Positions 2,655-17,842 of a stretch of 36,693 nt of DNA are shown piece after piece. The notes beneath the pieces are model-generated. The model saw only the letters and a list, made by a program, of their open reading frames with translations, ran no database searches and was not told the DNA's origin. The position numbers and the translations under genes are program-made. The stretch's first letter is position 1. Every line of letters begins with the position of its first letter. Origin of the DNA: Alphaproteobacteria bacterium (GTDB lineage: Bacteria; Pseudomonadota; Alphaproteobacteria; ATCC43930; CGMCC-115725); contig JAJPHB010000045.1 in the NCBI GenBank assembly GCA_021325525.1, positions 1-36,693 of the forward strand, given 5' to 3'.

Positions 2655-3536
2655 TCAATGCGCGAGCAGGAGCGGAAGGCGGCTGTTGCCGACGATCTGC
2701 CGTGTGGTGCCGCCGAAGATCATCTCCCGCCAAGGCGCATGGCCATAGCCGCCCATCACCAGAAGGTCGGCGCCATGGTCGCGAGCCGCTTCGAGAAGGA
2801 GTTCGCCGGCGCCGAGGCCGGGGACGAGGTCGATCACATGGGCGGCCGAGCGGATACCGTGCCAAGCCAGATACTCGGCGAGGTCCCCCGCGCTCGGCTG
2901 CTCGCCCTCGCGGCTGGCCAGGAGGAGGTGAACCTCTTTCGCCTCAGAGAGAAGGGGCATGGCGGCGGCGACGGCGCGAGCGGCCTCCAACGAGTGGTTC
3001 CATGCGATGGCGACGATCTCGCCGATCGGCAAGGCGGGTCGCATCGGCGCGACCAAAACGGGTCGGCCGCCGCGGAGCAGGGTTTCTTCCAGCGTGTTGC
3101 TGTGCGGCCGGTCGGAAACGCGTCCCGATTGGCCGAGCACGACGAGGTCAAAGATCCGGGCGCGCCGTGGAATGAAGGCGGCGGCGTAGCCGGTCTCTTC
3201 GCGCCAGGACGCGGAGCCGCCTTCGCGCGTGCGTTCCGTCGAGCCCAGCGGCACGGCGCGCAGCGGCAAGCCGTGGCGCTCGACCGCCGCATCGAAGGCC
3301 GCTCGCGCGCGGCGCGCGTTCTCCGTGCTCTCGAGCGTCGCGAGCTCGATCAGCTCGGACGCGACCGGCGAAGATATCGACTGGCCCAGCAACGGCAAGG
3401 CTTCGCGGGGATCGACGCGCATATGGAGGGCTTCGAGATGTGCGCCGAACCGCTTCGCCAGCCGGCAGGCGGTCTCGATCGCTCCCTCGCTGGCGGCGCC
3501 GCCGCTCAGCGGGGCGAGAATCGTGCGGATGGCCAT
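2655..3536 (-). CDS. Universal stress protein, tandem UspA domains
   Basis: At 293 residues this is about twice the size of a single Usp domain and contains two copies. The N-terminal copy begins MAIRTILAPLSGG. The C-terminal copy ends with MGGYGHAPWREMIFGG followed by T, the ATP-binding pattern G-x2-G-x9-G-[ST] of UspFG/MJ0577-type proteins. The N-terminal copy lacks a clear version of this motif, so probably only the second domain binds nucleotide. The ATG at 3536 was chosen for its AAGGAG ribosome site and because the domain begins there; the open frame extends 19 codons further but that part would overlap the promoter. An FNR-type box lies about 68 bp upstream, fitting the known anaerobic induction of tandem Usp proteins. 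Confidence 0.9.
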   Translation of the reverse strand: MAIRTILAPLSGGAASEGAIETACRLAKRFGAHLEALHMRVDPREALPLLGQSISSPVASELIELATLESTENARRARAAFDAAVERHGLPLRAVPLGSTERTREGGSASWREETGYAAAFIPRRARIFDLVVLGQSGRVSDRPHSNTLEETLLRGGRPVLVAPMRPALPIGEIVAIAWNHSLEAARAVAAAMPLLSEAKEVHLLLASREGEQPSAGDLAEYLAWHGIRSAAHVIDLVPGLGAGELLLEAARDHGADLLVMGGYGHAPWREMIFGGTTRQIVGNSRLPLLLAH

Positions 3537-4598: not shown

Positions 4599-5348
4599 AT
4601 GTCTCTTATCCCTGCGTCACTTCAGACGTCCCATGCTGCGGTCGCGATGGCCGCGCGGGAGAAGGCGTGCCAGAGTTGTGCGGCCCGCACTCTCAGCATT
4701 TGCGGCGCACTGCCCACGGACCATCTCGGCCGGCTGGCCATGATGCGCGCGCCGCAGCATCTGGAACCAGGCGAGACCTTCTTGAACGAAGGCGACCCCG
4801 CGACTCACTATCTCAACATCACGGCAGGGGCGGTGAAGGTTTACAAGCTTCTGCCGGATGGGCGGCGGCAGATCACAGGCTTCCTCTTTGCCGGCGACCT
4901 GCTCGGCCTTGCCTTCAACGACACCTACACCTACAGCGCGGAAGCGTTGACTCCGGTGACGGTGTGCCGCTTTCCCCGCCGGCAGCTGGAACGGCTCCTC
5001 GAGGAATTCCCTGCCGTCGAACGGCGTCTCCTCGCCATGGCATCCAACGAGCTCGCGGCGGCGCAGGAGCAGATGGTCCTTCTGGGCCGCAAGACGGCGC
5101 AGGAGCGGATCGCCTCGTTCCTGCTGACGCTCCTGCGTCGCGGCCAGCGCCTGGGCAGGAGCGCCGAGCGGGTGAAGCTCCCGATGACCCGCGCCGATAT
5201 CGGGGATTATCTGGGCTTGACGACCGAGACGGTGAGCAGGGCCTTCACCAATCTTCGCCGCTGCGGGTGCATCGCGCTCGAAGGCGCCTGCAACGTGCAT
5301 CTCTTGGATCGCGATCGCCTGGAAGAGCTCGCCGAGGGCGGCGAGTAG
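4599..5348 (+). CDS. fnrN: FnrN-type oxygen-sensing Crp/Fnr regulator
   Basis: This 249-residue Crp/Fnr protein carries the iron-sulfur signature of the FnrN/AadR branch: Cys24-x2-Cys27-x7-Cys35 at the N-terminus and a fourth cysteine, Cys123, in TVCRFPRR. Together these should hold an oxygen-labile [4Fe-4S] cluster, so the protein would dimerise and bind DNA when oxygen is low. A cyclic-nucleotide-type beta barrel spans about 50-140, followed by a long dimer helix and a helix-turn-helix near 198-225. Its recognition helix TTETVSRAFT supplies Glu211, Ser214 and Arg215, the residues that read TTGAT half-sites. That specificity matches the six boxes found within about 3.5 kb. It ends in TAG, showing that TAG is a normal stop here. 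Confidence 0.93.
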   Translation: MSLIPASLQTSHAAVAMAAREKACQSCAARTLSICGALPTDHLGRLAMMRAPQHLEPGETFLNEGDPATHYLNITAGAVKVYKLLPDGRRQITGFLFAGDLLGLAFNDTYTYSAEALTPVTVCRFPRRQLERLLEEFPAVERRLLAMASNELAAAQEQMVLLGRKTAQERIASFLLTLLRRGQRLGRSAERVKLPMTRADIGDYLGLTTETVSRAFTNLRRCGCIALEGACNVHLLDRDRLEELAEGGE

Positions 5349-5912: not shown

Positions 5913-6548
5913 TCACGAAACCTTCGGCGCGATCCCCACGGCGAGAGCCATGCGGACGAGAGCCGACAGGCTCTGCGCCTGCATCTTTTCCATGACGCGC
6001 GCGCGGTGGATCTCGACCGTCCGCGGACTGATGCCGAGATGGTGAGCGATCAGCTTGTTCGGGTGGCCGGCGACCATGCCCTCCAGGACTTCGCGCTCGC
6101 GCTCGGTCAGCGTGGCGAGCCGGCGTGCGATGTCGCCGTTCATTTGATCTTTGCGCTGCGCCGCGGCGCCGAGGGCAAGCGCGCGGCGGATGCTCGCCAG
6201 GAGGATGTCCTCCGAAAACGGCTTCTCGATGAAATCGGCGGCTCCCGCCTTCATCGCTCGGACCGCGATCGGAACGTCGCCGTGCCCGGTGATCATGATC
6301 ACCGGAACTCCGATGCCGCGTCGCGCGAGTTCCTCTTGCAGTTCGAGGCCGTCCATGCCGGGCATGTGGATATCGAGGAGGAGGCAGTCGCCGGCTTGCG
6401 GCGCGGCCTCGGCGAGAAAGGCGTCGCTCGACCCGTAAGAGGCGGTCTTCTTGAAGCCGGCTGTCTCCAGAAGCAGCGACAGCGAATTGCGGACCGTGTC
6501 GTCGTCATCGACGATGAAGATCGTCGGATCCAGTCCCAGTGATTCCAT
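5913..6548 (-). CDS. FixJ-family two-component response regulator
   Basis: This 211-residue protein has a receiver domain (about 8-125) and a LuxR-type helix-turn-helix (about 145-205). The receiver shows the acidic pocket DDDD at 14-17, the phosphoacceptor Asp59 in LLLDIHMPGMDG, the threonine in MITGHGD and the lysine in EKPF. The output domain contains LTEREREVLEGMVAGHPNK and ISPRTVEIHRARVMEKM, typical of FixJ/TodT/StyR-type regulators. In rhizobia FixJ, phosphorylated by the heme kinase FixL, activates fixK. No FixL-like kinase lies nearby, so the partner is unknown. The start at 6548 fits the domain but its AAAGGA motif sits almost on the ATG; a start at 6614 remains possible though it lacks a ribosome site. 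Confidence 0.9.
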   Translation of the reverse strand: MESLGLDPTIFIVDDDDTVRNSLSLLLETAGFKKTASYGSSDAFLAEAAPQAGDCLLLDIHMPGMDGLELQEELARRGIGVPVIMITGHGDVPIAVRAMKAGAADFIEKPFSEDILLASIRRALALGAAAQRKDQMNGDIARRLATLTEREREVLEGMVAGHPNKLIAHHLGISPRTVEIHRARVMEKMQAQSLSALVRMALAVGIAPKVS

Positions 6549-6671
6549 TCCTTTGCGGCCTCGACGGCCCGAGCGACGGGCTTTGTGTGCGTCGATGATA
6601 GTGCCGCACAGCATGCGTTGCTAGGAGCGGGACTGGAGCGGGGCGGGTCTCGCGCAATCCGGCAGAGCGCG

Positions 6672-7711: not shown

Positions 7712-7942
7712 AGCCGCCCTCGGCGCCGATCGCCATGGTAGGCCATGACCTCCGGCACCAAGCGAGGCGAATGACCATGGCTGTTCCGGCCCGGCCAGCC
7801 ACGATGTCCTCCGCTCCCGTTGCGCTTGCGGGAACGCTTGCAGGGGACTCCAGAGAAAGGCGGCCAGCAGACTCCCATGGAAATCAGGACCGGTGCGGCT
7901 GACCGACGCGGCCTTCCAACATCTTCGGCTGGAGAGAGGACG

Positions 7943-9292
7943 GTGAATATCATTTCTGCGGTGGATCACCGTGCGGCGGGTGAAAGCATGTCGCATGCCA
8001 GAAGGCTGGCGGTCCTCCTGGTGACGACCTTCGCCTTCATGGCCTGCTTTGCCGTCTGGATGATGTTCGGCGTCATCGGCATCCCGCTTCGGCGGGAACT
8101 CGGGCTGAGCGCCACCGAGTTCGGCCTGCTGACCTCGACGCCTGTCCTGACGGGCGCGATCTTCCGCCTGCCTCTCGGGATCTGGACCGACCGCTACGGC
8201 GGCAGGATCGTCATGATCCTGCTGCTGGTCCTGTGCGCCGTGCCGGTTTGGCTGTGCAGCTACGCAAACGCGTTCTGGGAACTCCTTCTCCTCGGGCTGG
8301 CGCTCGGTCTCGTCGGCGCCTCCTTCGCCGTCGGCATGCCTTATGTGGCGCGCTTCTTTCCCAAAGAGCGGCGCGGCTTTGCCATGGGCGTGTTCGGCGC
8401 CGGCACGACGGGCGCCGCGATCAACATGTTCATCGCGCCGATCCTCATCGCCCGCTATGGCTGGCAGGGGGTGCCTCGGTTCTATGCGGTGGCGTTGCTT
8501 GCGACGGCAGCCCTGTTCTGGCTGCTCTCGGCTCCCGATCCGGGTGCGGGCAAGAGCGGCGCCTCGGTGCGGCGGCAGCTTGCCGTGCTCGGCGATCTCC
8601 GCGTCTGGAAGTACTGCCAATACTACTCGATCGTGTTCGGCGGCTTCACCGCCCTATCGGTGTGGATGCCGCAGTACTTTGTGCAGGAATATGGGCTCGG
8701 CATCGCGCAGGCGGCGCTGCTGGCTGCCTGCTTCTCGCTGCCCGCCGGCGTGCTGCGCGCTTTCGGCGGCTGGCTCGCCGATCGCTTCGGAGCCCATCAT
8801 GTCACCTGGTGGGTGCTATGGGCGGCGTGGATCGCGTTGTTCCTGCTCTCCTACCCGCAGACCGATTTCATCATCCATACGATCCGCGGCCCGGCGCAAT
8901 TCCACATCGGCCTGGCATCGCTGCCGTTCACGACATTGCTCTTCGCGCTCGGCGTCGCCTTCGCCTGCGGGATGGCCTCCACCTTCAAATATGTCGGCGA
9001 CGAGTTCCCATCCGAGATGGGCGCCGTCACCGGAATCGTCGGTCTTGCGGGCGGCCTCGGCGGGTTCCTGCTCCCCATCCTGTTCGGCGTCATTCTCGAC
9101 TGGCTGGGCATCAGCTCCAGCTGCTTCATGTTCCTTTACGGCATCGTCTGGGTGTCCTTGATCCTCAACTACCTGACCGAAGTTCGCCGCTTGCCGGTCA
9201 TGGGAGAGGCAATCGACGGACCAGCGCCGCCAATCGCTGCGGCCGGCGGCTCTCGCGAGCCCTTGGCGCGGCTGACCGCAGGAGAAGGGTGA
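7943..9292 (+). CDS. narK: NarK-type nitrate transporter
   Basis: This 449-residue major facilitator protein has about twelve helices. It carries the two arginines that bind nitrate in NarK-type carriers, one in TGAIFRLPLG (helix 2) and one in GVLRAFGGWLADRFG (helix 8). It also shows the nitrate signature, glycine-rich VTGIVGLAGGLGG in helix 11. Sequence features such as ACFAVWMMFGVIG resemble the NarK1 class, which works as a nitrate/proton symporter; a nitrate/nitrite antiporter role cannot be excluded. The GTG at 7943 has a GGAGAGAGGA ribosome site; ATG at 7988 would give a more compact N-terminus and is a real alternative. The stop at 9292 directly abuts the narG ATG, so narK leads the nar operon. 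Confidence 0.93.
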   Translation: MNIISAVDHRAAGESMSHARRLAVLLVTTFAFMACFAVWMMFGVIGIPLRRELGLSATEFGLLTSTPVLTGAIFRLPLGIWTDRYGGRIVMILLLVLCAVPVWLCSYANAFWELLLLGLALGLVGASFAVGMPYVARFFPKERRGFAMGVFGAGTTGAAINMFIAPILIARYGWQGVPRFYAVALLATAALFWLLSAPDPGAGKSGASVRRQLAVLGDLRVWKYCQYYSIVFGGFTALSVWMPQYFVQEYGLGIAQAALLAACFSLPAGVLRAFGGWLADRFGAHHVTWWVLWAAWIALFLLSYPQTDFIIHTIRGPAQFHIGLASLPFTTLLFALGVAFACGMASTFKYVGDEFPSEMGAVTGIVGLAGGLGGFLLPILFGVILDWLGISSSCFMFLYGIVWVSLILNYLTEVRRLPVMGEAIDGPAPPIAAAGGSREPLARLTAGEG

Positions 9293-12200
9293 ATGGGTCA
9301 TTTCCTGGATCGGCTGACTTACTTCACGCGGACGCGCGAGCCTTTCGCCGGCGGGCATGGCGAGGTGCGCCGGGAGAACCGCGCCTGGGAGGAAGGATAC
9401 AGGCAGCGCTGGCAGCACGACAAAATCGTGCGCTCGACGCATGGCGTGAACTGCACCGGCTCGTGCAGCTGGAAAATCTATGTCAAAGGCGGCGTCGTGA
9501 CCTGGTAGACGCAGCAGACGGATTACCCGCGCACGCGCCCCGACATGCCCAATCACGAGCCGCGAGGCTGTTCGCGCGGCGCCTCGTACAGCTGGTATCT
9601 CTACAGCGCAAACCGGCTGAAATATCCGATGGTGCGGGGCCGGCTGGTGCGCGCCTGGCGCGAGGCGCGCCGGACGATGGACCCGGTCGCGGCCTGGGCG
9701 TCCATCGCCGGCGACGCGGAGACGGCGCGCGCCTATAAGAGCCTGCGCGGACGCGGAGGCTTCGTGCGCTCGAGCTGGGACGAGGTCACCGAGATCATCG
9801 CCGCCGCCAATATCCACACGATCAAGACTTACGGTCCCGACCGCGTGGTCGGCTTCTCGCCCATTCCGGCGATGTCGATGGTGTCCTACGCCTCGGGGGC
9901 GCGCTATCTGAGCCTCATCGGCGGCACGCTTCTTTCCTTCTATGACTGGTACTGCGACTTGCCGCCTTCGAGCCCACAGACCTGGGGCGAGCAGACCGAC
10001 GTGCCGGAATCGGCCGATTGGTACAATTCCGGCTACATTATCGCCTGGGGCTCGAACGTGCCGCAGACGCGCACGCCCGATGCGCATTTTTTCGTCGAGG
10101 CGCGCTACAACGGCACGACGGTCGTGGCGATTACGCCCGACTATTCCGAGGTGGCGAAGCTCTCGGACCTCTGGCTCCATCCGAAGCAAGGCACCGATGC
10201 CGCGCTCGCCATGGCGCTCGGCCACGTCATCCTGCGCGAGTTCTTCCTCGACCGCGAGGTGCCGTATTTCCAGGATTATTGCCGCCGCTACACCGACATG
10301 CCGATGCTCGTGCGGCTCGTCCGCCAGGGCGAGCGCTGGGTTCCCGACCGTTATCTGCGCGCCGGCGATTTTCCGTCCGCGCTGGGCGAAGCGGCGCATG
10401 CGGAGTGGAAGACAGTCGCGCTCGACGAGCTCTCGGACAGCGTCGTCTCGCCGCAGGGTTCCATCGGCTATCGCTGGCCGCAACAAGAAGGCGACGGCGG
10501 CAAGTGGAATCTCGAAGAGAAGGAAGGCGCGTCGGGCCGCGGCGTGCGCCTCGCGCTCAGCGTCATCGATCGGCGCGACGATGTGCTGCCCGTCGCCTTT
10601 CCCTATTTCGGCAACCGGCCGCACGAGAGATTCCGCGGCAATGACCAAGGCAAGGAGGTGCTCGTCCGCAACGTACCGGTCCGGCGGGTCGAGCTTGCCG
10701 AGGGCGAGGCCTATGTCGCGACCGTCTTCGATCTCCTCTGCGCCAATTATGGGCTCGACCGCGGGCTCGGCGGCGAATGCGCGCGCTCGTTCGCTGACGA
10801 CCTGCCCTATACCCCGGCATGGCAGGAGCCGATCACCGGCGTCGCTGCCGAGAAGGCGATCTCACTGGCGCGCGGCTTTGCCGCCAACGCCGAGAAGACG
10901 CGCGGCCGGTCGATGGTGATCATCGGCGCCGGGATGAACCATTGGTATCACCAGGACATGAACTACCGCAGCATCATCAATTTCCTGATGATGTGCGGAA
11001 CCGTCGGCGTCTCGGGCGGCGGCTGGGCGCATTACGTGGGGCAGGAGAAGCTGCGTCCGCAGACGGGGTGGACCGCGCTCGCCTTCGCCTTGGACTGGGT
11101 CCGGCCGCCGCGGCAGATGAACGGCACCTCGTTCTTCTATGCCCACTCCGATCAATGGCGATACGAGAAGCTCGGAATCGATGAGCTGCTCTCGCCGCTG
11201 GCCGATCCGCGCCGCTACAGCGGCAGCCTCATCGATTTCAATGTCCGCGCTGAGCGGATGGGCTGGCTGCCCTCCGCGCCTCAGCTCGCCACCAATCCGC
11301 TCCGCCTCGGCGCGGCGGCCCGGCAGGCGGGGAAGGGGGTCAAGGATTACGTCGTCGAGGGGCTCAAATCCGGCCGGCTCAAGATGGCGTGCGAGGATCC
11401 CGACGATCCGGCGAACTTTCCGCGCAACCTCTTCATCTGGCGCTCGAACCTCTTCGGCTCGTCGGGCAAGGGCCACGAATACTTCCTGCGCCATTTCCTC
11501 GGCACGCGGCATGGGCTGCAGGGCAAGGATCTCGGCGAGATGGGCGCGCAGAAGCCGGAGGAGATCGTCTGGCGCGATCCGGCGCCGGAAGGAAAGCTCG
11601 ATCTCGTCGTGACGCTCGATTTTCGCATGTCGACGAGCTGTCTCTACTCCGACATCGTGCTGCCCACCGCCACTTGGTACGAGAAGAACGATCTCAATAC
11701 TTCGGACATGCACCCCTTCATCCATCCGCTGTCCGCCGCCGTCGATCCGGTGTGGGAGGCGCGCAGCGATTGGGCGATCTACAAGTCGATCGCGCAGCGC
11801 TTCTCCGAGCTCGCGGTCGGCCAGCTCGGCCGCGAGGAGGACGTGGTGCTGACGCCCATCCAGCACGACACGGCGGCCGAGCTTGCCCAACCTTTCGACG
11901 TGCGCGATTGGAAGAAAGGCGAGTGCGACCTCGTGCCCGGGCGAACCGCGCCTCAGATCAGCGTCGTCGAACGCGATTACCCGAACACCTATCGGCGCTA
12001 CACGGCGCTCGGGCCGCTCCTCGAGACCCTTGGGAATGGCGGCAAGGGGATCGCCTGGGACACGCGCGAGGAGGTCGAAGGCCTCGCCCGCCTCAACTAC
12101 ACCGTCGCCGAAGACGGCGCGAGCAAGGGGCGGCCGCGGATTGAGACCGACATCGACGCCGCTGAGGTGATCCTGTATCTGGCGCCCGAAACCAACGGCA

Positions 12201-13036
12201 ATGTCGCGGTCAAGGCCTGGGCCGCGCTGTCGCGGGCGACGGGGCGCGACCATCGCCATCTCGCCGAGAGCCGCGAGGACGAGAGGATTCGCTTCCGCGA
12301 CGTCCAGGCGCAGCCGCGCAAGATCATCAGCTCGCCGACCTGGTCCGGCATCGAAAGTGAAAAAGTCAGCTACACGGCCGGATACACCAACGTCCACGAG
12401 CTCATCCCGTGGCGGACCTTGAGCGGCCGCCAACAATTCTATCAGGACCATCGGTGGCTGCGGGATTTCGGCGAAGGCTTCGCCTCGTATCGCCCGCCGA
12501 TCGATACGCGCACGGTGGCGCCGCTCCTCGGCAAGCGCGGCAACGGCGAGAAGGAGATCGTGCTCAACTTCATCACGCCGCATCAGAAATGGGGCATCCA
12601 CTCCACCTATACCGACAACCTCCTGATGCTCACGCTCTCCCGCGGCGGACCCATCGTCTGGATCTCGGAGGCGGACGCCAAGCAGGCGGGCATCGAGGAC
12701 AACGACTGGATCGAGCTCTACAACCTCAACGGCGCCATCACGGCGCGGGCCGTGGTGAGCCAGCGTGTTCATGTCGGCATGTGCCTCATGTATCACGCGC
12801 AGGAGAAGATCGTGAACGTGCCGGGCTCGGAGGTCACGGGACTGCGCGGCGGCATCCACAACTCGGTGACGCGCACGGTGCTGAAGCCGACGCATATGGT
12901 CGGCGGCTATGCCCAGCTCTCCTACGGCTTCAATTATTACGGCACGGTCGGCTCCAACCGCGACGAATTCGTCATCGTGCGAAAGATGGCGCAAGTCGAT
13001 TGGCTGGACCGGTCCGAGCGCAGCGCCGCCGAATAA
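9293..13036 (+). CDS. narG: narG, respiratory nitrate reductase alpha subunit, with in-frame TAG
   Basis: The full frame is 1247 codons, the usual NarG length, and encodes the molybdenum catalytic subunit that reduces nitrate on the cytoplasmic face. Codon 72 (9506-9508) is TAG where the family has glutamate ([16 protein letters not shown]), one G-to-T change from GAG. The frame continues unbroken afterwards. FS0 cluster ligands are His50, Cys54 and Cys58 before the stop and Cys93 (NHEPRGC) after it. The likely molybdenum ligand is an aspartate in YDWYCDLPP or nearby. Restart at the ATG at 9545 would give 1163 residues without three FS0 ligands, so probably no active enzyme. Its ATG follows narK directly with GGAGAAGG as ribosome site. 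A sequencing error, recent mutation or suppression are all possible. Confidence 0.93.
9506..9508 (+). other. In-frame amber codon within narG
   Basis: TAG at codon 72 of narG, in frame with 1175 further open codons. fnrN, the PpiC gene and zur in this window all end with TAG at the normal family C-terminus, so TAG is not generally reassigned here. Confidence 0.9.
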
Positions 13037-13054: not shown

Positions 13055-14587
13055 ATGAAGATTCGCGCGCAAATCGCGATGGTGCTCAACCTCGACAAAT
13101 GCATCGGGTGCCATACCTGCTCGGTCACGTGCAAGAACGTCTGGACCTCGCGTCAGGGGATGGAATACGCGTGGTTCAACAATGTCGAAACGAAGCCGGG
13201 CATCGGCTATCCCAAGGATTGGGAGAACCAGGCGCGCTGGCGGGGAGGCTGGAAGCGCAAGCGCAACGGCAAGCTCGTGCCGAAGCAGGGAGGAAAATGG
13301 GCGATCCTCGCCAATATTTTCGCCAATCCGAACCTTCCCGAGATTGACGACTACTACGAGCCCTTCACCTTCGATTACGAGCATCTGCAGACCGCGCCCG
13401 AGCTGCCGGCGGCGCCGGTCGCCCGGCCGCTCTCGCTGGTCAGCGGTCGCACGATGGACAAGATCGAATGGGGCCCGAACTGGGAGGAGATTCTCGGCGG
13501 CGAGTTCGCCAAGCGTTCGCAAGATTACAACTTCGACGCCGTGCAGAAGGACATCTACGGGCAGTTCGAGAACACCTTCATGATGTACCTGCCGCGGCTG
13601 TGCGAGCACTGCCTCAACCCGACATGCGTCGCGTCCTGTCCGTCCGGCTCGATCTACAAGCGCGAGGAGGACGGCATCGTCCTCATCGATCAGGACAAGT
13701 GCCGCGGCTGGCGAATGTGCGTCTCGGGCTGCCCTTACAAGAAGATCTACTACAACTGGAACACGGGGAAGGCCGAGAAGTGCATCTTCTGCTATCCCCG
13801 CATCGAAGCCGGCCAGCCCACCGTTTGCTCGGAGACCTGCGTCGGACGCATCCGCTATCTCGGCGTGCTGCTCTATGACGCCGACGGCATCGAAAGCGCC
13901 GCCGCGACCGAGGACGTGAAGGATCTCTACGCAGCGCAGCTCGCGCTTTTCCTCGATCCCAACGATCCGCAGGTGCAGGCGCAGGCACGCGCCGACGGCG
14001 TTCCCGAGGCGTGGCTCGACGCCGCGAAGCGCTCGCCGGCCTACAAGATGGCCGTCGAGTGGAAGATCGCCTTTCCGCTTCATCCGGAGTACCGCACCTT
14101 GCCGATGGTCTGGTACGTGCCGCCGCTGTCGCCGATCCAGTCGCACGCCAATGCCGGCGCGATCGGGATGGCGGGCGAGCTTCCCGACATTCGCTCGCTG
14201 CGAATTCCGGTCAAATACCTTGCCAACCTGCTGACCGCCGGCGACGAGGCGCCCGTCATCGCCGCGCTCGAGCGCATGCTCGCCATGCGCGCCTTTTATC
14301 GCAGCCGCCAGCTCGGCATGGGCGAGAATTGCGAGGTCCTCGATCAAGTAGGGCTCAGCCTCTCCGAGGTCGAGGAGATGCACCGCTATCTCGCGATCGC
14401 CAATTACGAGGACCGCTTCGTCATTCCGACGGCGCATCGCGAGGAAGCCGAGAATGCCTATGCCTTGCGCGGCGATTGCGGCTTCTCCTTCGGGAACGGC
14501 TGCGATTCGGGCGAGCCGAAATCGAGCCTCTTCGGCGGCAAGATGGGGCGGCGCAAGCTGACCCCCGTGCGGATGCTCGAGGAGTGA
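13055..14587 (+). CDS. narH: Respiratory nitrate reductase beta subunit
   Basis: This 510-residue iron-sulfur protein transfers electrons from the NarI hemes to NarG. Four cysteine groups are visible: CIGCHTCSVTC at 16-26, CEHCLNPTCVASCP in the middle, CRGWRMCVSGCP and the CIFC/TVCSETC segment. The tryptophan in CRGWRMC replaces a cysteine, as in all NarH proteins, and marks the [3Fe-4S] cluster. Length and C-terminal sequence are normal. The gene starts 18 bp after narG with an AAGGATCACGGAG ribosome region. Nothing is degraded, which argues that the narG stop is recent or not real. Confidence 0.97.
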   Translation: MKIRAQIAMVLNLDKCIGCHTCSVTCKNVWTSRQGMEYAWFNNVETKPGIGYPKDWENQARWRGGWKRKRNGKLVPKQGGKWAILANIFANPNLPEIDDYYEPFTFDYEHLQTAPELPAAPVARPLSLVSGRTMDKIEWGPNWEEILGGEFAKRSQDYNFDAVQKDIYGQFENTFMMYLPRLCEHCLNPTCVASCPSGSIYKREEDGIVLIDQDKCRGWRMCVSGCPYKKIYYNWNTGKAEKCIFCYPRIEAGQPTVCSETCVGRIRYLGVLLYDADGIESAAATEDVKDLYAAQLALFLDPNDPQVQAQARADGVPEAWLDAAKRSPAYKMAVEWKIAFPLHPEYRTLPMVWYVPPLSPIQSHANAGAIGMAGELPDIRSLRIPVKYLANLLTAGDEAPVIAALERMLAMRAFYRSRQLGMGENCEVLDQVGLSLSEVEEMHRYLAIANYEDRFVIPTAHREEAENAYALRGDCGFSFGNGCDSGEPKSSLFGGKMGRRKLTPVRMLEE

Positions 14588-14601: not shown

Positions 14602-15288
14602 ATGGAAAATGCGGACATGATCGTGTTGCGCGCTCTGGGCGCGCTGCTGACCTATCCCAGCCAAGAGCTGCGCGAGGCGCTTCCCGAGATCGCGGCGGCA
14701 ATCGGCGCATCCGACCTGATCGCGCCGGGGGATCGCGGCGCCGTGCTGGGCCTCGTCGACCTTCTGGCGTCGGCGGATCCGCTCTGGGCCGAGGAGCGCT
14801 ATGTCGAGCTCTTCGACCGTGGGCGCGCCACCTCGCTGCATCTCTTCGAGCACGTCCATGGCGAGGCGCGCGACCGCGGCGCGGCGATGGTCGAGCTCAA
14901 AGCCGTCTACGAGGGCGCAGGCTTTCGCCTGGCGGCGAACGAGCTTCCGGACTACCTGCCGGTCGTTCTCGAATATCTGAGCTGCCGGGGAATTGCCGAG
15001 GCCCGCGACATGCTCGGCGATTGCGCGCATATCCTGCGCGCGGTCGGCGAGGCCTTGCTCGCGCGCGGCAGTCCCTACAGCGCCGTCTTCAGCGCTTTGC
15101 TCGGCATCATCGGCGCGGAGGGACCGGACGACAGCGCTTCGTCTCGGCGCGCCGCAGACGCCCAAGACCTCGATCGAGACTGGTTCGAGCAGCCGGCATT
15201 CGCGCCCGCGCCTCGAGTTGCGGCAATGGACTTCGGAATCGACGCGGCAATGGCAAATGGCTGTCCGCGCAAGGAGATCGCGCCATGA
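14602..15288 (+). CDS. narJ: Nitrate reductase assembly chaperone
   Basis: The 228-residue product is a NarJ/TorD-type chaperone needed for molybdenum cofactor and heme insertion into NarGHI; it is not part of the final enzyme. Visible family features are LRALGALLTYPSQELREALPE near the start, ERYVELFDRGRATSLHLFEH-type sequence around 75-95 and LPDYLPVVLEYLS near 120. ATG at 14602 is preferred, with GGGCCGAGG upstream; an in-frame GTG at 14584 overlapping the narH stop would add six residues. Its stop overlaps narI as ATGA. Confidence 0.94.
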   Translation: MENADMIVLRALGALLTYPSQELREALPEIAAAIGASDLIAPGDRGAVLGLVDLLASADPLWAEERYVELFDRGRATSLHLFEHVHGEARDRGAAMVELKAVYEGAGFRLAANELPDYLPVVLEYLSCRGIAEARDMLGDCAHILRAVGEALLARGSPYSAVFSALLGIIGAEGPDDSASSRRAADAQDLDRDWFEQPAFAPAPRVAAMDFGIDAAMANGCPRKEIAP

Positions 15289-15989
15289 TGTTCGGGGGCT
15301 ATCTCAACACCTTCCTCTTCGGCATCTACCCTTACCTTGCCCTCGCGACGCTGGTCGTGGGCAGCCTCATTCGGTTCGACCGCGAGCCCTACACCTGGAA
15401 AAGCGATTCCTCGCAAATGCTGCGCAAGCGCCGGCTCCGCTTGGGCTCCAACCTCTTCCATTACGGCGTGCTCGTCGTCGTGATCGGACATTTCGTCGGG
15501 TTTCTGGCGCCCGATTGGGCCGTGCGCTGGGCGCTCGATCCGGCCGTCCATCAGCTCGTCGCCATGCTCGCCGGCGGCGTCGCGGGCCTCATCGCCATCA
15601 TCGGCCTCTCGATCCTTCTGCATCGCCGGCTCGGCGATCCCCGCATTCGCCGCAACAGCCGCAAATGGGACATCGCCATCGTCCTCATGCTGTGGCTGCA
15701 GCTTGCCCTCGGCCTTCTCACGGTTCCGCTTTCGGCCCAGCATATGGATGGCGCGATGTTCGAGGTGATGACGAGCTATGTGAAGGGGATCGTCACCTTC
15801 CAGGGCGGTGCCGCCGATCTTCTGCTCGGCACGCCGATGATCTACCGCCTCCATATTCTCCTCGGCTTCACGCTCTTCCTCGTTTCGCCTTTCACGCGCA
15901 TGATCCACATCTGGAGCGGCATGGGCGCCCTCGCCTACATCGCCCGGCCCTATCAGCTCGTGCGCACGCGGCGGTCGCTCGCACGATGA
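15285..15989 (+). CDS. narI: Respiratory nitrate reductase gamma subunit (cytochrome b)
   Basis: This 234-residue integral membrane protein oxidises quinol and carries two b hemes. All four heme ligands are present: His59 and His69 in FHYGVLVVVIGH, and His190 and His208 in RLHILLG and MIHIWSG. These match E. coli His56, 66, 187 and 205 with a constant offset of three. Five transmembrane segments are apparent. The start overlaps the narJ stop (ATGA) and is preceded by AAGGAGAT, a strong ribosome site. The stop overlaps the next gene in the same way. Confidence 0.96.
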   Translation: MMFGGYLNTFLFGIYPYLALATLVVGSLIRFDREPYTWKSDSSQMLRKRRLRLGSNLFHYGVLVVVIGHFVGFLAPDWAVRWALDPAVHQLVAMLAGGVAGLIAIIGLSILLHRRLGDPRIRRNSRKWDIAIVLMLWLQLALGLLTVPLSAQHMDGAMFEVMTSYVKGIVTFQGGAADLLLGTPMIYRLHILLGFTLFLVSPFTRMIHIWSGMGALAYIARPYQLVRTRRSLAR

Positions 15990-16717
15990 GCGCCAGCACC
16001 GATACCGTCCGGGTCAACGGCGTCAGCGTCGATCCCGCGCGCGGACCCTCGTCCGAGCTCGTTGCCTTGCGCGAGCTGCTGCGCCAGCGCGCGGTGGCGC
16101 TCGGCCTCATCTCCGAGACGGCGGGGGAAGGCGAGGTCGATGCCGGGATCGAAGCCCTTCTTGACCGCGAGGTGGCGGTTCCCTCGCCGACGGAAGAGGA
16201 GTGCCGGCGCTATTACGACACACATCCGGCTCTGTTCCGGAGCGGCGATCTCGTCTTCGTTCGCCACATCCTGTTCCAGGTCACGCCGGGCAGCCCGCTG
16301 CACCTGATCCGCAGCGAGGCCGAGCAGACTCTCGCGCAAGTCATCGCGGCTCCCGACGAGTTCGAGGCCTGCGCGCTGACGCTGTCGAACTGCCCTTCGG
16401 GTCGGCAAGGCGGCAGCCTCGGCCAGATCGGCCGCGGCGATACGGTGCCGGAATTCGAGCAGGCGCTGTTTGCCGATCAATGGATCGGCATCCTGCCGCG
16501 CCTCGTCAAGACGCGCCACGGCTTCCATATCGTCTCGATCGATCGCCGAGTCGAGGGCAGGGTCCTCCCGTTTGAGCTCGTCCGCGAGCGCATCGCAGAA
16601 GAGTTGACACGGCGAGTCCAGGAGGTGGCGCTGAGGCAATATGTGCGCCTGCTCGCAGGACAGGCGGATCTCGAGGGCGTCGAGCTCGACGGAGCATCGA
16701 CGCCGCTCGTGCAATAG
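15986..16717 (+). CDS. PpiC-type peptidyl-prolyl cis-trans isomerase (NifM-like)
   Basis: A 243-residue protein with an N-terminal helical region (about 20-90) and a parvulin/rotamase domain (about 95-205). The parvulin core is recognisable by FVRHILFQV, CPSGRQGGSLGQIGRGDTVPEFE and the final KTRHGFHIVSID. The layout resembles NifM, the nitrogenase maturation isomerase, and there is no clear signal peptide, so it is probably cytoplasmic. It is fused to the nar operon by an ATGA overlap with narI. That suggests a role in folding NarGHI or its chaperone complex, which is known as an association in other nar operons but unproven here. It ends in TAG. Confidence 0.9.
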   Translation: MSASTDTVRVNGVSVDPARGPSSELVALRELLRQRAVALGLISETAGEGEVDAGIEALLDREVAVPSPTEEECRRYYDTHPALFRSGDLVFVRHILFQVTPGSPLHLIRSEAEQTLAQVIAAPDEFEACALTLSNCPSGRQGGSLGQIGRGDTVPEFEQALFADQWIGILPRLVKTRHGFHIVSIDRRVEGRVLPFELVRERIAEELTRRVQEVALRQYVRLLAGQADLEGVELDGASTPLVQ

Positions 16718-16729
16718 CGCTGCCGCGGC

Positions 16730-17842
16730 ATGCGGTCGGCGATGCGCATTGGGTCGCGCATCCTGGCCGCCGCGGAGATTCTCTATCCCGGATATTTCGC
16801 GCTCGTCATGGCGACCGGCGCGCTGTCGATCGCTCTCTATCTTTTGCGGCACGAGACGCTTGCCCGCGCGCTCTTTGCCGTCAATGTGCTCGCTTATTCG
16901 ACCCTCACGGCGCTTCTGTTGCTGCGCGTCGCCTATTTCCGCGCCCGGATCCTGACGGACCTTCTCGATTATGGACGCGCTCCCGGCTTTTTCACGCTGG
17001 TTGCCGGCACCTGCGTCTTCGGCACCAATATTGCCGTGACCATGCGGCTGACGGAGATTGCGACGGTGTTCTGGGGCGCCGGCATCCTTCTGTGGGTCCT
17101 CGTGATGTACAGCTTCTTCGCCATCGTCGTGACCCGCGCCGACAAGCCCGATCTCGAAAGCGGCATCAACGGCGCCTGGCTCATCGCCGCTGTAGCGACG
17201 CAATCGGTCGCCGTGCTCGGCGGAACCTTGGCCCCGTCCTTCGCCGCGCCCATGATCCCGCTGTTCTTCTGCGTCGTCATGTATCTGATCGGCGCAATGC
17301 TCTACCTGACGATCATAACGCTTATTTTTTATCGCCTGACCTTCATACGGCTGACGAGCGCCGCCTTCCTGCCGCCTTACTGGATCAACATGGGCGCGGT
17401 GGCGATCACGACGCTTGCGGGCGCAACGCTCATCTCGCGCGCAGCTCTGTCGCCGGTTCTTATGGAGCTGCTGCCGTTCCTGCGAGGCTTCACGCTCTTC
17501 TTCTGGGCCTCGGCAACATGGTGGATCCCTCTGCTGCTCATTCTCATGGCGTGGCGCCACCTCGTGATGCGGTACCCTTTCGAGTACGAGCCGCAATATT
17601 GGGGCATGGCCTTCCCGCTGGCGATGTACACGACCGGCACCTGGAGGCTGGCGGATGCCCTGAAGCTCGACTTCCTGATGACGGTTCCGCGCCTCTTCGT
17701 CTGGCTCGCTGGTTTCGTCTGGCTCGTCGTTTTCGGCGGCATGTTTCATGCGATCCTGGCGGCGTGGCGCGACAAGGACCGCGTTTCGCCCAAGCGGCTG
17801 TCGGGCATGAAAGTCAGGCCGGGCGCGCGCTCTCGCTTTTGA
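16730..17842 (+). CDS. TDT/SLAC1-type membrane protein (TehA-like)
   Basis: This 370-residue protein has about ten hydrophobic helices, beginning YPGYFALVMATGALSIAL, a pattern typical of the tellurite-resistance/dicarboxylate transporter family that includes TehA and the plant SLAC1 anion channel. Members pass anions, including nitrate in SLAC1 relatives. As the last gene of the nar operon, 12 bp after the PpiC gene, it could export nitrite or move nitrate, but that is inference. It starts with ATG at 16730; a second ATG at residue 5 is close to the hydrophobic part. Its last 29 bases overlap the convergent nnrS end. Confidence 0.85.
   Translation: MRSAMRIGSRILAAAEILYPGYFALVMATGALSIALYLLRHETLARALFAVNVLAYSTLTALLLLRVAYFRARILTDLLDYGRAPGFFTLVAGTCVFGTNIAVTMRLTEIATVFWGAGILLWVLVMYSFFAIVVTRADKPDLESGINGAWLIAAVATQSVAVLGGTLAPSFAAPMIPLFFCVVMYLIGAMLYLTIITLIFYRLTFIRLTSAAFLPPYWINMGAVAITTLAGATLISRAALSPVLMELLPFLRGFTLFFWASATWWIPLLLILMAWRHLVMRYPFEYEPQYWGMAFPLAMYTTGTWRLADALKLDFLMTVPRLFVWLAGFVWLVVFGGMFHAILAAWRDKDRVSPKRLSGMKVRPGARSRF

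Follow-up and report, generated by a model that had tools for sequence, protein, structure and literature searches.

A lone in-frame TAG in an otherwise normal alphaproteobacterial narG is probably a recent nonsense change or a consensus error

Introduction

The closest described counterparts of the gene reported here are the interrupted coding sequences of M. smegmatis, in which a single in-frame stop, flanked by intact homology, reflects either an error or a mutation; in the part of that study used here, 28 of 73 resequenced interrupted genes were errors (PMC1852416). In-frame stops in bacterial genes have also been described as widespread, most of them being short-lived polymorphisms of selected genes, as far as the sections of that survey drawn on here go (PMC7918605). 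The narG stop resembles the former in its form, and the latter in having a low dN/dS and no other decay. It differs from the M. smegmatis set in being one case known from the assembly alone (PMC1852416), and from the short-lived stops, which were required in two or more species, in occurring in a single genome (PMC7918605).

A further comparison is with variant genetic codes, which the narG TAG and a TAA in the bL9 gene of the same genome resemble in that both stand at glutamate sites. Codes in which UAR means glutamate occur in ciliates. The same assignment is described for Blastocrithidia in the portion of a report consulted here (PMC12153298). Unlike in such codes, TAG and TAA still end genes in the present genome, RF1 is intact, and no matching tRNA was found among 44 tRNA genes.

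Broken narG genes are known, since a table in a Brucella abortus genome comparison, used here apart from its column headings, includes narG among the genes with pseudogene marks (PMC2364660). Among the titles and abstract openings found in the open literature on premature narG stops, on natural suppressors and readthrough, on interrupted genes and on reassignment in Alphaproteobacteria, none describes the present case. As for bL9, its loss in E. coli lowers translational fidelity at a small growth cost, according to the passages taken from that work (PMC4399890), and in P. fluorescens with a poor RF2 supply an rplI frameshift was acquired as a compensatory change, as stated in the part of the report used (PMC13245932).

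Here we analyse a window of 36,693 bases, which is one complete contig (C52) of an alphaproteobacterial draft genome of 4,786,985 bases in 172 contigs. We conclude that the narG TAG is a lone recent nonsense change, either real or a consensus error, and not a case of recoding, with a probability of about 0.9.

Results

An in-frame TAG divides the FS0 ligands of NarG

The narG frame lies on the forward strand at 9293-13036, beginning with ATG at 9293 and ending with TAA at 13034-13036, and comprises 1247 codons counting the stop. Its codon 72 (9506-9508) is TAG, which is preceded by 71 codons and followed by 1175 open codons. When the stop is translated as X, the protein scores 2195 bits against TIGR01580 (cut-off 1084) and covers nearly the whole profile. 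The 25 residues on either side of the stop are identical to those of Shinella at 23 and 24 positions, respectively, indicating homology on both sides.

A sequence-only reading of the window had placed the TAG where the family has glutamate and had described the frame beyond it as open, and the relatives agree. In 88 narG loci, consisting of the best 80 of 593 and 8 from a survey of the order, and thus the closest found and not all that exist, glutamate occupies residue 72 in all 86 loci that cover the site. The codon in these relatives is GAA or GAG, as read by a regex pass. Of 43 genomes surveyed in the order, 8 have narG above the cut-off, with 9 rows in total, and the 8 rows other than our own copy have no stop. 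In the class, 385 genomes were surveyed and 62 of them have a strong narG match, giving 64 rows of which some are partial; again the stop is present only in our own copy and in none of the other 63 rows from 61 genomes. Two of the 88 loci appear damaged late in the gene, one by a frameshift at about 3481-3487 (L097) and one by an out-of-frame stretch with three stops (L058), implying that narG damage in draft genomes is uncommon but known.

The stop also divides a group of residues that we take to be the ligands of the FS0 cluster, as in the sequence-only reading. His50 (9440-9442), Cys54 (9452-9454) and Cys58 (9464-9466) lie upstream of the TAG and Cys93 (9569-9571) lies downstream, so the four ligands are not in one uninterrupted frame. 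Of 45 aligned rows, 41 have a letter at these positions, and the four residues are invariant in all 41. The first in-frame ATG past the stop (9545-9547) would open a frame of 1163 amino acids without His50, Cys54 and Cys58, consistent with the earlier claim that a restart at this position would lose the cluster.

narG is well preserved apart from the stop

In a 45-row alignment, 532 columns are strongly conserved, and NarG differs from the consensus at two of them, through the stop itself and one Lys-to-Arg change. It ranks 34th of 45 for such departures, and the worst sequence has 19 in 541. This decay test rests on 45 rows in that 42 of the 86 other loci were left out by a strict motif match. 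Compared with its nearest relative (L010), narG has a dN of 0.081 and a dS of 0.755, giving a dN/dS of about 0.11. In addition, its dN to an outgroup (L039) is 0.125, while those of the sister genes L010 and L011 are 0.134 and 0.135, respectively, showing that the narG branch is not accelerated. Neither the conserved columns nor dN/dS revealed relaxed selection past the stop of the kind seen in older pseudogenes. Given the absence of other decay, the stop is either very young or not real, which supports the two options that the sequence-only reading had offered alongside suppression, namely an error or a very recent loss.

tRNA genes, RF1 and stop usage give no support to decoding of the stop

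The genome contains 44 tRNA genes over the Rfam cut-off. In ARAGORN all of their anticodons correspond to sense codons, and CUA, UUA and UCA are found in none of the 44. Extending the search to every tRNA-like place with E up to 10 revealed no stop-reading anticodon either, and one weak place (15.7 bits) proved to contain no tRNA. The two tRNA-Glu genes have ttc and ctc anticodons, and both of them, as well as tRNA-Trp, fold into ordinary cloverleaves. Ile-GAT and Ala-TGC are absent from the 44 genes. These two tRNAs are often located within rRNA operons, and the rRNA operons are probably absent from the draft. Because the list lacks Ile-GAT and Ala-TGC and is therefore incomplete, a suppressor tRNA could have been missed.

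Pyrrolysine decoding was rejected, as no PylS hit passes the cut-off of 178 bits; the two hits found have 33 and 20 bits, and similar sub-cut-off hits occur in 12 control genomes. RF1 is intact and retains its functional motifs PAT and GGQ. The RNA 3' of the narG stop has nothing unusual in its structure (z 0.56).

Of the 1299 genes predicted in the 1.94 Mb sampled (see below), TAG terminates 240 and TAA 109. The argument in the sequence-only reading that regular TAG gene ends speak against a general reassignment thus holds across the sample, and general stop reassignment is excluded for practical purposes. Amber suppression, which the same reading had kept as an option to be checked by a search for a CUA tRNA, fares poorly: there is no such anticodon among the 44 genes of the incomplete list, no PylS over the cut-off and an intact RF1, and other genes are interrupted by TAA and TGA, for which an amber suppressor could not account. 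Occasional suppression of the narG TAG is simply unsupported.

The same draft contains other interrupted genes

We sampled 121 stretches with 1,941,216 bases, about 40% of the genome, from which two short all-N contigs were later left out, and scanned them for stops flanked by coding signal in both directions. Most of the 88 candidates, whose contexts were judged by eye, look like neighbouring genes that share one frame. Nine candidates besides narG were tested with Pfam, and in three of them (bL9, an MFS transporter and an exosortase) a family extends across the stop. At least four genes, narG included, are thus interrupted in the roughly 40% of the genome that was sampled, and further ones may exist because only nine candidates besides narG were tested with Pfam.

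The bL9 gene (rplI) has a TAA at L211:7417-7419 (contig C24 of the draft, minus strand; also covered by L297), and its C-terminal domain is intact beyond the stop. The site is glutamate in all 29 other loci read. This is the sole copy of the gene found in the genome, and no stop was found in the other bL9 genes of the order (0 of 37 rows from 36 other genomes). The bL9 nonsense codon is a more unusual item in this assembly than the narG stop, given that E. coli without bL9 translates less accurately although it grows almost as well (PMC4399890). The MFS transporter has a TGA at L178:9892-9894 (contig C11, minus strand) where close homologues have tryptophan (TGG), and this stop is at most 279 bases from the end of its contig. 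The exosortase (EpsH) has a TGA at a variable site (L207:12275-12277; contig C4, plus strand) in a stretch of odd composition, with a GC of 0.612 that is low for the genome. All three stop codons are seen in these interrupted genes, which argues against anything specific to amber and fits scattered point changes.

Lone stops are about as frequent in a complete Shinella replicon

We used Shinella ORFs from 1.45 Mb of a complete replicon as probes, which covered 394,747 bases of the sample and revealed 7 stops inside alignments. Only the narG stop among these 7 has strong homology over 25 residues on each side. A short match (L169:11177) was taken as a spurious frame with no Pfam family. The reverse search (tblastn) covered 357,060 Shinella bases with 22 stops inside alignments. 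One of the best of them, a TAA within the receiver domain of a response-regulator gene (L370:7470-7472), looks like a real interruption, and no family was found for another (L358:32285). In the Shinella scan by codon signal, 81 candidates were obtained, of which 28 have no early start; none of the 10 tested with Pfam has a domain across the stop.

Well-flanked internal stops therefore occur once per 394,747 bases here and once per 357,060 bases in Shinella. Since the complete replicon has them about as often, the frequency of lone stops in the draft is ordinary. Frameshift-like places are rare in both, with 2 here and 3 in the Shinella control. The Shinella replicon (NZ_CP069303.1; L348-L376) is itself a chromosome-sized molecule of 4.6 Mb that is labelled as plasmid 'unnamed1', carries 2 annotated features and has a narG.

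The nature of the change is equally ordinary. With the codon usage of this genome, 2.54% of single substitutions yield a stop, and GAG to TAG makes up 19.4% of the single-step routes to a stop, the largest share. Because this is the commonest route, the kind of change in narG needs no special cause. On the 2.54% figure, explaining all four lone stops in the 472,766 predicted codons by consensus errors would take about 1 error in every 10,000 coding bases.

Discussion

Taken together, the findings point to an isolated and very recent G to T change (GAG to TAG) that would affect one codon of an otherwise normal narG. Three observations pull the other way. Glutamate codons are the site of two of the four stops, and a tryptophan codon that of a third; a leaky code would produce this pattern, although single-step mutation does so too. 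The interruption of bL9, a gene that is rarely lost, would be surprising among real mutations and suggests an error or some other cause. Finally, a suppressor could be missed with an incomplete tRNA list.

Within the preferred reading, the TAG may be a consensus or assembly error, the organism's own narG being intact; we put this at slightly less than an even chance. The absence of decay in narG, a similar stop in the sole bL9 gene and an MFS stop next to the end of a contig favour this reading. The draft may also be a metagenome bin, since no contig among 102 with listed lengths is shorter than 2,823 bases, as with a binning cut-off. The M. smegmatis interrupted genes that turned out to be errors, as given in the part of that paper cited above, provide a precedent (PMC1852416). 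On the other hand, the error rate that would be needed if all four stops were wrong is high at good coverage, internal stops are no commoner and frameshift-like places as rare here as in the Shinella control, and the narG and bL9 stops lie away from contig ends.

Alternatively, the TAG may be a real and very recent nonsense mutation, so that narG is a null allele in a line that no longer respires nitrate. This reading, too, we consider to fall just short of even odds. The gene is dispensable where there is no nitrate, and the complete Shinella replicon has lone stops at a similar frequency. A mutation of this age would also match the short-lived stops in selected genes, as far as the sections used here describe them (PMC7918605). 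Against it stand the comparable bL9 stop in the same assembly and the absence of a stop from the 63 further narG rows that were found across the class.

If the cell does carry the TAG, it would read the codon as an ordinary stop, and translation would end after 71 residues. As judged from the sequence, such a product could not work. A product restarted further downstream would lack the N-terminal part and retain only Cys93 of the four FS0 ligands. NarGHI would then be inactive, and the line would just have lost the sole Nar- or Nap-type nitrate reductase that was found in its genome.

It is quite unlikely that full-length NarG is produced by readthrough of the TAG, whether through a suppressor tRNA or through ribosomes made leaky by a truncated bL9. 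In favour of this, the gene past the stop is under normal selection and bL9 is interrupted; in the passages used, decoding becomes less accurate when bL9 is lost, with effects that include stop hopping (PMC4399890). Nevertheless, none of the 44 tRNA genes has a stop-reading anticodon, the tRNA-Trp and tRNA-Glu cloverleaves are ordinary, the PylS hits stay below the cut-off, RF1 is intact, the RNA fold is unremarkable, and internal stops are not in excess. Furthermore, an rplI deletion in P. fluorescens gave slower growth and no rise in prfB frameshifting, according to the portion of the report available here (PMC13245932).

A broader form of this idea, in which the lineage is naturally leaky, its bL9 being cut by TAA and stops at glutamate and tryptophan sites being read by near-cognate tRNAs so that narG works weakly, seems very improbable to us. 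We give it little weight because internal stops are not in excess and each stop is the plainest point change.

That a restart at the ATG 12 codons past the stop yields a working shorter NarG has next to no chance, even though this ATG opens a frame of 1163 amino acids: the product would lack His50, Cys54 and Cys58, no ribosome-binding site was seen by eye upstream of 9545, and, in the part of the NarG literature used here, Moco can enter NarG only once FS0 has been inserted, and NarJ binds to a remnant Tat signal peptide on NarG (PMC5123574).

Our preferred reading thus stays a lone recent nonsense change, real or apparent, and its two forms differ in their consequences. If the base is an error, the case is a caution against inferring recoding or gene loss from a single draft. 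If it is real, this line would have lost respiratory nitrate reduction by Nar- and Nap-type enzymes, a loss caught before any decay, and the genome would be annotated as that of a nitrate respirer yet be unable to respire nitrate. Neither a second narG nor a NapA over the cut-off was found in the genome, and the scanned parts of four other molybdopterin-domain proteins resemble NuoG, formate dehydrogenases and one further relative.

The neighbouring nar genes on the forward strand had been called intact in the sequence-only reading, and each of them is indeed a single open frame: a narK-like nitrate/nitrite transporter gene (7820-9292; TIGR00886, 189 bits, below the cut-off of 312), narH (13055-14587; TIGR01660, 950 bits), narJ (14602-15288; TIGR00684, 118 bits) and narI (15285-15989; TIGR00351, 246 bits). 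They are followed by a gene for a peptidyl-prolyl isomerase of the NifM/PpiC kind (15986-16717, plus strand; below curated cut-offs), which ends in an ordinary terminal TAG. The contig itself is typical of the genome; a contaminant was considered and rejected, as the tetranucleotide distance of the window ranks 88th of 95, where 1 is the most odd. A search of the window for RNA families found none.

Upstream of narK, profile matches identify a gene for an FnrL/FixK-like regulator (4599-5348, plus strand), which has a terminal TAG, and one for a FixJ response regulator (5913-6614, minus strand), an arrangement that fits an oxygen-regulated nitrate respiration cluster. At the other end, a gene for a transporter of the TDT family (tellurite-resistance/dicarboxylate; 16730-17842; 65 bits, below the cut-off) adjoins the nar genes.
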